A stretch of 64,000 nt of DNA from Lautropia sp. SCN 69-89 (GTDB taxonomy: Bacteria; Pseudomonadota; Gammaproteobacteria; Burkholderiales; Burkholderiaceae_E). Below are positions 8,976-13,040 of the stretch, piece by piece (position 1 is the first letter of the stretch; each line of letters starts with the position of its first letter). The translations under genes were made by a program, and so were the position numbers. The notes under the pieces are model-generated. The model had not been told where the DNA came from. It searched no databases and saw only the letters and a list, made by a program, of their open reading frames with translations. The stretch lies in contig MEED01000023.1 in NCBI GenBank assembly GCA_001724855.1, positions 1-64,000 on the forward strand, given 5' to 3'.

Positions 8976-10011
8976 GACCCTGCCCCGCGCAGCGCTGCGT
9001 GAACTGCACGAACGCGTCGAGCCTGGCGCGCGCCGCGCCCGATGCGATCGTCTCGCGCGCCAGCGCGATGCCGGCTGCGATCGAGTCGACCACGTCGGCC
9101 GCATAGAGGGCCGTGCCCGCGTTCAGCGTGACGATCTCGCGCGGCGTGCCCGGCTGGTTCGACAGCGCCTCGAGCACCATCTCCTTCGATTCGAGCGCGT
9201 CGGCCACCCGCAGGCCGCGGTTGCTGATCATCGACAGGCCGAAGTCCTCCGGATGGATCTCGTACTCGCTCACTTCGCCGTTCTTCAGTTCGCCGACCAT
9301 CGTCGCGGCGCCGAGCGAGACCTCGTCCATCCCGTCCTTGCCCCAGACGACGACCGCGTGCCTCGCGCCCAGCCGCTGCATCACGCGCACCTGGATGCCG
9401 ACCAGGTCGGGGTGGAACACGCCCATCAGGATGTTCGGCGCACCAGCCGGGTTGGTGAGCGGGCCGAGGATGTTGAAGATCGTGCGCACGCCCAGCTCGC
9501 GGCGCACCGGCGCGACGTTCTTCATCGCCGGGTGGTGATTGGGCGCGAACATGAAGCCGACGCCGGTGGCGCGAATGCAGTCGGCGACCTGCGACGCGTT
9601 CAGCATGATGTTGGCGCCCAGCGCCTCGAGCACGTCGGCGGCGCCCGACTTCGACGAGACGCCACGGTTGCCGTGCTTGGCCACCGTCGCGCCGGCCGCC
9701 GCGGCCACGAAGGTCGACGCGGTCGAGATGTTGAAGGTGTGCGAGCCGTCGCCGCCGGTGCCGACCACGTCGACGAAGTGCGGGCCGCCGTCGACCTCGA
9801 CCTTGGTGGCGAACTCGCGCATGACCTGTGCTGCAGCGCTGATCTCGCCGACCGTCTCCTTCTTCACGCGCAAGCCCACCAGGATCGCCGCCATCATCGT
9901 CGGCGACATCTCGCCGCTCATGATCTGGCGCATGATCCTGAGCATCTCGTCGTGGAAGATCTCGCGATGCTCGATGCAACGGGTGAGCGCTTCCTGCGCG
10001 GTGATCGTCAT
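8968..10011 (-). CDS. trpD: Anthranilate phosphoribosyltransferase
   Basis: Start [47 protein letters not shown]; 8-bp overlap with trpC. Confidence 0.97.
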
Positions 10012-10577
10012 TTCGGTTCTCCCAGGAAATTGCGCAGCAGCGCGTGGCCGTGCTCGGTGAGAATGGATTCGGGATGGAACTGCACGCCTTCCACGGCCAG
10101 TTCGCGGTGGCGCAGCCCCATGATCTCGCCGTCGTCGGTCCAGGCCGTGACTTCGAGACAGCCGGGCAGCGACTCGCGCTCGACCGCCAGCGAGTGATAG
10201 CGGATCGCGGTGAACGGGTCGGGAAGCCCGCGGAAAACGCCGGCCCCGTCGTGACGGATCGGCGAGGTCTTGCCGTGCATCACCTGCTTCGCGCGCACCA
10301 CGCGCCCACCGAAGGCGGCGCCGATCGCCTGGTGTCCCAGGCAAACGCCGAGGATCGGGATGCGGCCCGCGAAACGCTCGATCAGCGGCAGCGAGATGCC
10401 GGCCTCGGCCGGCGTGCACGGGCCCGGCGAGATCACGATGCGCGCCGGGGCCAGCGCGACGACCTCGTCGAGCGTGATCGCGTCGTTGCGCACCGTGCGC
10501 ACCTCCTCGCCCAGCTCGCCGAAGTACTGCACCAGGTTCCAGGTGAAGCTGTCGTAGTTGTCGATCATCAGCAGCAT
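10008..10577 (-). CDS. trpG: Anthranilate synthase component II (glutamine amidotransferase)
   Basis: [29 protein letters not shown]; overlaps trpD by 4 bp. Confidence 0.97.
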
Positions 10578-10594
10578 GTTCGTCTCCGGCCGCG

Positions 10595-12076
10595 TCAGAT
10601 CTGGCCATCCAGGCCGGCCTGCACCAGTTCGGCTGCACGCAGCACCGCGCGCGCCTTGTTCTCGGTCTCCTGCCACTCGTTCTCGGGGATCGAGTCGGCG
10701 ACGACGCCGGCGGCGGCCTGCACGTACAGGGTGCCGTCCTTGACCACTGCGGTGCGGATCGCGATCGCGAGGTCGAGGTCGCCGAGAAACGAAATGTAGC
10801 CGCAGGCGCCGCCATAGACGCCGCGTCGGGTCGGCTCGAGCTCGTCGATGATCTGCATCGCGCGGATCTTCGGCGCGCCGGTGAGCGTGCCCGCCGGGAA
10901 GGTCGCGCGCAGCACGTCGATCGGCCCCATGCCGGGCTTCAGCTTGCCCTCGACGTTCGAGACGATGTGCATCACGTGCGAGTACTTCTCGATCGCAAGC
11001 TGGTCGGTCACGCGCACGCTGCCGATTTCGGCGATGCGGCCGATGTCGTTGCGCGCGAGATCGATCAGCATCACGTGCTCGGCAATCTCCTTCGGGTCGG
11101 CCAGCAACTCCTGCGCGAGCGCTGCATCCTGCGCCGGCGTGGCGCCGCGCCGGCGCGTGCCCGCCAGCGGACGGATGGTGATGCGGTCGCCGTCGGGCTG
11201 GCGCTCCTGGCGCACGAGGATCTCGGGCGAGGCACCGACGATGTGGAACTCGCCGAGGTTGTAGAAGTACATGTACGGCGACGGGTTGATCGAGCGCAGC
11301 GCGCGGTACAGCGTGACCGGCGAATCGCGGAACGGCTTTTCGATCAGCTGGCCGACCTGCACCTGCATCACGTCGCCGGCCATGATGTATTCCTTGGCCC
11401 GCGCGACCGCTGCGAGGTAGTCGTCCCTGGCGAATTCGCGGCGCGTGCCGGTCTCGAAGCTCGGCTCGAGCGAGGGCATCTCCAACGGCCGCGACAGCTG
11501 CGCGTAGAGCTCGCGCAGGCGCTTGCGGGCACGCTGGTACGCCTCGCCCTCGGCGGGATCGGCGTAGACCATCAGGTAGATCTTGCCGGTCACGTTGTCG
11601 ACGATCGCGAGTTCTTCGGTGAGCAGCAGGAACACGTCGGGAACGCCGACCGGATCGGGCTTGTCGCGACCGGCCGCGCGCGGCTCGATGTGGCGCACCG
11701 CGTCGTAGGCGAAATAGCCGGCCAGCCCGCCGCAGAAGCGCGGCAGGCCCGGGCGCACCGCGACCTTGAAGCGTTTCTGGTAGGCGTCGACGAAGTCGAG
11801 CGGGTTGCCCCGGTAGCGCTCGATCGTTTCGCCGTTCTTCACCACCTCGGCGCCGTCGGCGGTCGAGCGGATGATCGTGCTCGCGGGCAGGCCGATGAAC
11901 GAATAGCGCCCGAAGCGCTCGCCGCCCACCACCGATTCGAGCAGGAAGCTGTACGGCTGGTGCGCCAGCTTCAGGTACAGCGACAGCGGCGTGTCGAGGT
12001 CGGCGAAGCACTCCAGCAGCAGCGGAATGCGGTTGTAGCCCTGGGCGGCAATCGCCCGGAATTCGATTTCGGTCAT
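10595..12076 (-). CDS. trpE: Anthranilate synthase component I
   Basis: 493 aa; chorismate-binding motifs ([49 protein letters not shown]). Confidence 0.97.
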
Positions 12077-12097
12077 GACTCCCTCGCGGAACTGCGG

Positions 12098-12139
12098 CCG
12101 GGTCCACTGCGGACCCGGAGGCGCCCGCCATGGGGCGCC
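12098..12139 (-). promoter_or_regulatory. Two strong RNA hairpins between trp leader peptide and trpE
   Basis: Perfect stems: CCGGGTCC/GGACCCGG (12098-12118, 5-nt loop) and GGCGCCC/GGGCGCC (12120-12139, 6-nt loop). Confidence 0.65.
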
Positions 12140-12213
12140 CAGCGATGTTTCAGGAAACCCGGCCGGGGGCGCGGCGCCGCGAGGGCGCTAGCGACACGGC
12201 CGGTGTGCGGCGA

Positions 12214-12291
12214 TCAGCGCCAGCACCACCAGCGCCAGGCCCGCCAACCGTTGGCGTTGCGGGCCGAGCGAAGTTCCTGAACGTTGCGCAT
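12214..12291 (-). CDS. trpL: trp operon leader peptide (attenuation), MRNVQELRSARNANGWRAWRWWCWR
   Basis: Short ORF translated by hand: 25 codons + TGA, 5 Trp in the last 10 residues, upstream of trpE on the same strand. Confidence 0.85.
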   Translation of the reverse strand: MRNVQELRSARNANGWRAWRWWCWR

Positions 12292-12356
12292 GAGGGAAAG
12301 GATGTCCTGGCTGTTTCTGGACGTGGCGGACTATAACACCATCGCCGGCGAGGGCG

Positions 12357-13040
12357 TCAACCGGCCTCGATGCATGTCGCCGCCTCGAGCAGGTCGGCGA
12401 CGACCGCGTCGGCGTCGATCGTGCTCACCGGCAGCCCTTCGTTGTAGCCGTACGGCACGATCATCACCGGCATGCCGGCCGCGCGGGCAGCCTGTGCGTC
12501 GTTCAGCGAATCACCGATCGCCACCATCTGCGACGGCCCGAGCCCGAGGAGCTCGCACGCGTGGTGCAACTGCATCGGGTCGGGCTTGCCTCGCGGCAGC
12601 ACGTCGCCGCCGATCACGAACTCGAACTGCGCGGCCAGCCCGGTGCGGGCGAGCAGCGTGTGGGCGAAGGCCTGCGGCTTGTTGGTCACGCAGGCGAGCC
12701 TGAGTCCCTTGGCGTGCATCGTCGCGAGGCCCTCGACCACGTTCGGGAACAGCGTCGCCGAACGGCCGTTCTCGCGCTCGTAGTGGCGCTCGAACGACTG
12801 CATGCCGCGCCCGGCGGTCGCATCGTCGACGCGCCCGTCGAGCGAGCCCGACAGCGCGCGGTGCACCAGGATGCGTGCACCCTTGCCGACGTAACTGCGC
12901 ACCGTCGATTCCGGCAACGCCGGCTGCCCGAAGTCGGCCAGCATTGCGTTCACCGCAGCGGTGAGGTCGGCGACCGTGTCGAGCAGGGTGCCGTCGAGGT
13001 CGATTGCCACTCCGCGGGCGCGGAACGTGCGCGCGGCCAT
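12357..13040 (-). CDS. gph: Phosphoglycolate phosphatase (HAD family)
   Basis: AIDLDGTLLDTVADL; VTNKPQAFAHTLL; KPDPMQL; conserved rpe-gph-trpE order. Confidence 0.94.
   Translation of the reverse strand: MAARTFRARGVAIDLDGTLLDTVADLTAAVNAMLADFGQPALPESTVRSYVGKGARILVHRALSGSLDGRVDDATAGRGMQSFERHYERENGRSATLFPNVVEGLATMHAKGLRLACVTNKPQAFAHTLLARTGLAAQFEFVIGGDVLPRGKPDPMQLHHACELLGLGPSQMVAIGDSLNDAQAARAAGMPVMIVPYGYNEGLPVSTIDADAVVADLLEAATCIEAG

Follow-up and report, generated by a model that had tools for sequence, protein, structure and literature searches.

A putative tryptophan-sensing leader upstream of trpE in Lautropia, with two long-range helices that may hide the trpE ribosome-binding site

Introduction

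Control of transcription through a leader peptide has its textbook example in the trp attenuator. Olekhnovich and Gussin reportedly described, in 2001, attenuation of trpE and trpGDC in Pseudomonas putida (cited in PMC8297930).

Several related systems have been described in other bacteria. In Sinorhizobium meliloti, the trpLE(G) attenuator (rnTrpL/peTrpL) gives rise to a terminated RNA that is still able to make peptide (PMC7298713). In translational attenuation of the ermC type, stalling of the ribosome in the leader opens the Shine-Dalgarno sequence of the downstream gene (PMC10219788). In the LEU element of actinobacterial leuA, a segment of the leader ORF pairs with the Shine-Dalgarno sequence of the biosynthetic gene (PMC1262725). 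A literature search, which covered a minority of subscription journals, returned no described Burkholderiales trp leader and no pairing of a trpE Shine-Dalgarno sequence with a leader. The novelty of the arrangement presented here is relative to this searchable literature and does not amount to proof.

The locus and its leader peptide

The window, i.e., the whole stretch of 64,000 nucleotides that was analysed, belongs to a Burkholderiales genome of 3.8 Mb (95.6% complete). Among named relatives, the nearest are Zeimonas arvi together with uncultured Lautropia/Burkholderiales MAGs. The gene order on the minus strand is rpe, gph (12357-13040), a gap of 280 nt, trpE (10595-12076, assigned with the NCBIfam model trpE_most), trpG (10008-10601), trpD, and trpC. 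TrpR (PF01371) was not found in this 95.6% complete assembly. Promoter-like elements can be read from the sequence on the minus strand at 12330-12360, namely TTGACG (12355-12360) and TATAGT (12330-12335), separated by a 19-nt spacer. A scan for consensus promoters gave no match upstream of the leader, the 19-nt spacer exceeding the length that the scan permits. In most relatives inspected, a TATAGT/TATATT box is located at the end of gph or just past it. In one member of the genus, TrpE is split over two overlapping frames (G016:C1:1303647-1305091), due to either a frameshift or a sequencing error.

A preliminary description of this DNA had proposed a Trp-rich leader of 25 codons before trpE, and translation confirms it: the ORF (12214-12291, minus strand) encodes MRNVQELRSARNANGWRAWRWWCWR followed by a stop codon, with five Trp among the last ten residues, and the stop lies 137 nt ahead of trpE. 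It is the sole ORF of 10 to 60 amino acids on either strand of the 64 kb window with at least five Trp among its ten C-terminal residues, and dinucleotide shuffling of the 280-nt leader yields no such ORF in 3000 trials. No recognisable Shine-Dalgarno sequence precedes it (12292-12330), and the same holds for most leaders of the relatives. A second protein (ALVVLALIA), read from a different frame of the leader, was considered and dropped, as it rests on repeated TGG codons.

The preliminary description had made its proposal depend in part on conservation of the ORF, and a Trp-rich short ORF is indeed present ahead of trpE in nearly all of 80 Burkholderiales trpE loci. Most Oxalobacteraceae leaders have the consensus MFLxKKR...EAWLWRRWQSW in common, and the leaders of the window's genus mostly end in WRxWRWWCWR or close variants. 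Inspection of the DNA ahead of trpE at 59 loci of the window's genus and family revealed a leader in most members of the genus and in some other genera of the family, while several genera of the family have no recognisable leader. The criteria for selecting leader ORFs were their Trp content, start codon, length, and distance, and never pairing; searching for Trp-codon motifs by pattern lacked the specificity needed to measure the distribution. Rfam covariance models gave no match at the gathering score or with a convincing E-value, either in the window or in the relatives. The conservation of the ORF lends strong support to its assignment as a Trp leader peptide.

The terminator-like hairpin and its neighbours

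The preliminary description had further pointed out complementary GC-rich segments and two perfect hairpins, all of which lie where it placed them. The GC-rich segments, ACCGGCCG (12197-12204) and CCGGCCGGG (12158-12166), belong to a terminator-like hairpin, ACCGGCCG / CGGCCGGG (12158-12204, minus strand). The two perfect hairpins, visible in the sequence and in folds, occupy 12098-12139 on the minus strand, between the tail of helix P1 (see below) and the trpE Shine-Dalgarno sequence. They consist of GGCGCCC (12133-12139) with GGGCGCC (12120-12126), and of CCGGGTCC (12111-12118) with GGACCCGG (12098-12105). Covariation of the hairpin before the Shine-Dalgarno sequence is weak in the window's family (z 2.3) and reaches z 4.5 in other Burkholderiales. 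The motif CTACAATAGCG recurs just ahead of the trpE Shine-Dalgarno sequence, within the last 25 nt, in L008, L016, L018, L045, and other Oxalobacteraceae. It is part of the covarying hairpin (z 4.5), yet it resembles a -10 element as well.

In a classical attenuator, an antiterminator formed by the Trp codons and the segment past the stop would compete with ACCGGCCG / CGGCCGGG, acting here as a GC-rich intrinsic terminator without a proper U-run. The antiterminator equivalent would be the Trp-codon hairpin of GGTGGTGCTGGC (12219-12230) with GCCGCACACC (12202-12211), located at 12202-12230 on the minus strand and read from the sequence together with the folds of relatives. Its retention in the window's family, where it is too invariant to covary, is in line with classical attenuation. 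Other Burkholderiales point in the same direction. They have the same layout, and in 40 of them the hairpin past the stop covaries (own versus swapped arms, z 9.3). It is usually followed by U6-U7, and the Trp-codon segment shows complementarity to the terminator's 5' arm, so that a conventional attenuator layout can be assigned to these leaders from their sequences. Leaders from Undibacterium and Herbaspirillum (L014, L029, L036, L042, L045, L064) carry an interrupted U-run (e.g., GTTTGTT) at the terminator position, which stays complementary to the leader codons.

The window itself argues against this reading. Its leader strand contains no U-run, the longest run of T being three, which bears out the earlier remark that the two hairpins just before trpE lack a U-tract. 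A terminator scan found no match in this strand, the proposed hairpin does not covary in the window's family (own versus swapped arms, z -0.1), and its 3' arm doubles as the partner of P1. The earlier claim of Trp attenuation is thus supported in part, namely for the leader peptide, which is conserved; the covariance comparison that had been suggested alongside it supports a terminator hairpin in other Burkholderiales. For the window's family, these results give no support to attenuation of the terminator type at the hairpin in question, and classical attenuation is considered an unlikely account of the window.

Helix P1: leader codons and tail

RNAalifold on MAFFT alignments recovered local Trp-codon hairpins only and missed the long-range helices; hence, swap and chimera tests were used. 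Swap tests reduce the effect of relatedness but do not remove it, as leader and trpE share their ancestry. Several segment pairs were tried, and single p values near 0.01 are therefore to be discounted.

The first long-range helix, P1, is indicated by covariation and folds. Its 5' strand (12262-12282, minus strand) spans leader codons 4 to 10 and comprises GTTCAGGAAC (12273-12282) and CTCGGCC (12262-12268). Its 3' strand, the tail (12147-12166, minus strand), comprises CCGGCCGGG (12158-12166) and GTTTCCTGAAAC (12147-12158). Leader codons 4 to 8 pair with a segment 45 to 65 nt beyond the leader stop, and the tail occupies the position that the terminator U-tract has in other Burkholderiales. 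Covariation of P1 gives z 4.1-4.7 in the window's family, z 2.8 when that family is reduced to about one member per lineage, and z about 9 elsewhere. When leader nt +6..+30 are tested against own and swapped tails, z is 8.7 for 41 other Burkholderiales and 4.3 for 17 members of the window's family, while segment pairs without the two P1 stretches mostly remain at about 0. Full-ensemble chimeras give z 5.4 and 4.1 for the same two groups, respectively. In other Burkholderiales, 41 compensated cells were counted versus 19.5 in shuffles; none of 500 shuffles reaches 41, and slid registers fail. About ten compensated branch events were placed on a TrpE tree.

The pairing partners illustrate this pattern. 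The terminator U-tract and the bases preceding it (ACGTTTTTTGT) find their complement, in other Burkholderiales, in leader nt +10 to +21 (encoding xKKR, e.g., ACAAAAAACGT). The two arms vary in concert: ACAACAAACG/CGTTTGTTGT in Herbaspirillum, TAACAAACG/CGTTTGTTA in Undibacterium, ATAAAAAACGG/CCGTTTTTTAT in Burkholderia, GTTCAAAAAAC/GTTTTTTGAAC in Pseudoduganella, and TCAATAAACCA/TGGTTTGTTGA in L043. The window's family retains this pairing, with the same codons and at the same place, even though the U-run is gone; GTTCAGGAAC faces GTTTCCTGAAAC in the window, and the partners in its relatives are TCAGGAAAT/ATTTCCTGA, GCCAGGAAA/TTTCCTGGT, and GTTCGGGAAC/GTTCCTGAAC.

Helix P0: leader start and trpE ribosome-binding site

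The second long-range helix, P0, likewise emerges from folds and covariation. Its 5' strand (12287-12298, minus strand) consists of TTCCCTC (12292-12298), located just ahead of the leader ATG, and TGCG (12287-12290). Its 3' strand (12079-12096, minus strand) consists of the trpE Shine-Dalgarno sequence GAGGGAG (12079-12085) and CGCA (12093-12096), resulting in 7 + 4 pairs. In the minimum-energy fold of the window leader (z -2.7 versus shuffles), UUCCCUC is paired to GAGGGAG. The Shine-Dalgarno sequence is thus paired in the default fold, with a pairing probability of 0.81. Translational control had been a side remark of the preliminary description; it has become the better lead, as the fold puts the trpE Shine-Dalgarno sequence in a covarying long-range helix.

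Partners in relatives differ in sequence and include TGCGTCCCG/CGGGACGCA (L099), ATGCGTATTC/GAGTACGCAT (L103), CATGCATC/GATGCATG (L114), and CTCCCG/CGGGAG (L094). In the window's family, the swap test gives z 2.7-2.9 (27 loci) with controls near 0. When each lineage is represented by about one member, z is 3.2 (p 0.002) for leader -12..+12 against trpE -25..+6, and ensemble tests are weaker (z about 2). Support for P0 is therefore moderate in the window's own family, and its covariation there is less strong than that of P1. The helix extends across both start codons in other Burkholderiales, where ATGTTTCTC pairs with GAGAAACAT and leader -12..+12 against trpE -25..+6 gives z 4.4. In 47 other gammaproteobacterial genomes, one per family, leader 0..+20 against trpE -25..+6 gives z 7.9, and more distant segments about 2. 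In these 47 families (L148-L220), trpE is preceded, mostly at a distance of 40 to 75 nt, by a short leader ORF whose product often has RW or RWR at its end. In L201, early leader codons and the trpE Shine-Dalgarno region, CCATCACCTGGC/GCCAGGTGATGG, can form 12 pairs.

Proposed mechanism

The reading preferred here, to which a probability of about 0.5 is assigned, is that of a Trp-sensing trpE leader with a mainly translational output, in which the unstalled state closes P1 and P0 and stalling keeps them open. That TrpR was not found in the genome counts in favour of this reading. When charged tRNA-Trp is scarce, the ribosome would slow at the Trp codons of the leader. When Trp is plentiful, it would clear the leader, and the leader RNA would close into one domain, with codons 4 to 10 paired to the tail (P1) and the leader start region paired to the trpE Shine-Dalgarno sequence (P0). 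Closed P0 would hide the ribosome-binding sites of trpE and of the leader alike. A translating ribosome would have to open P1 and P0, and a stalled or queued one would keep them open, allowing translation of trpE. A difficulty is that a single ribosome stalled at Trp16 would not cover P0, so that a queued ribosome or the loss of P1 would be needed. In other Burkholderiales, the same lock would operate beside a transcription terminator.

Reduced translation of trpE could add Rho-dependent termination to such a lock. Rho could also be the principal agent, if the leader ribosome and the folded leader decide whether Rho loads in the interval from the leader stop to trpE. The untranslated gap of 137 nt without a U-run terminator is compatible with this, and Rho would benefit from concealment of the trpE ribosome-binding site. 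As the main mode of control, Rho-dependent attenuation nevertheless appears improbable. Least probable is a role of P1 outside the switch, as a post-decision shut-off of leader translation in terminated or read-through RNA: in other Burkholderiales, P1 does join the terminator U-tract, which is in the RNA-DNA hybrid at termination, to leader nt +10 to +21, which fall within the footprint of the initiating ribosome, but a shut-off alone explains neither P0 nor the persistence of P1 in the window's family, which has no U-run.

Returning to the translational lock, a wider proposal is put forward tentatively, with slightly less than even odds: Gammaproteobacteria (in the GTDB sense, including Burkholderiales) may share a lock between the first leader codons and the trpE ribosome-binding site, through which Trp controls the translation of trpE. 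The terminator of Burkholderiales would then be an addition, and the window's family would have kept the lock and lost the terminator. If the covarying helices act as suggested, many non-enteric relatives regulate trpE by hiding its ribosome-binding site with leader start codons, and in Burkholderiales a further long-range helix joins codons of the leader to the U-tract of the terminator. Neither long-range helix falls under an Rfam family.

Comparison with known systems

The Pseudomonas putida trpE/trpGDC system is reportedly also a case of trpE leader control in Proteobacteria outside the enterics. Sinorhizobium meliloti trpLE(G) shares the trpE leader peptide, its own features being a leaderless ORF, control of the terminator type, and functions in trans.

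The E. coli trpL attenuator also places a short ORF with multiple Trp codons before trpE and senses Trp through a stalled ribosome, as would the window. The window differs from it in that the proposed terminator lacks a U-run and does not covary. Conversely, neither P0 nor P1 rises above chance in E. coli trpL, so that the helices of the window have no above-chance counterpart there. In systems of the ermC type, stalling in the leader opens a downstream Shine-Dalgarno sequence, which is what would happen in the window. The signal in the window, however, would be amino acid supply, and the Shine-Dalgarno sequence would be hidden by the start region of the leader itself. The LEU element resembles the window in the pairing of a leader ORF segment with a Shine-Dalgarno sequence. 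In the LEU element, the run of Leu codons itself pairs, whereas in the window it is the start region that is predicted to pair, with the Trp codons lying inside the domain.
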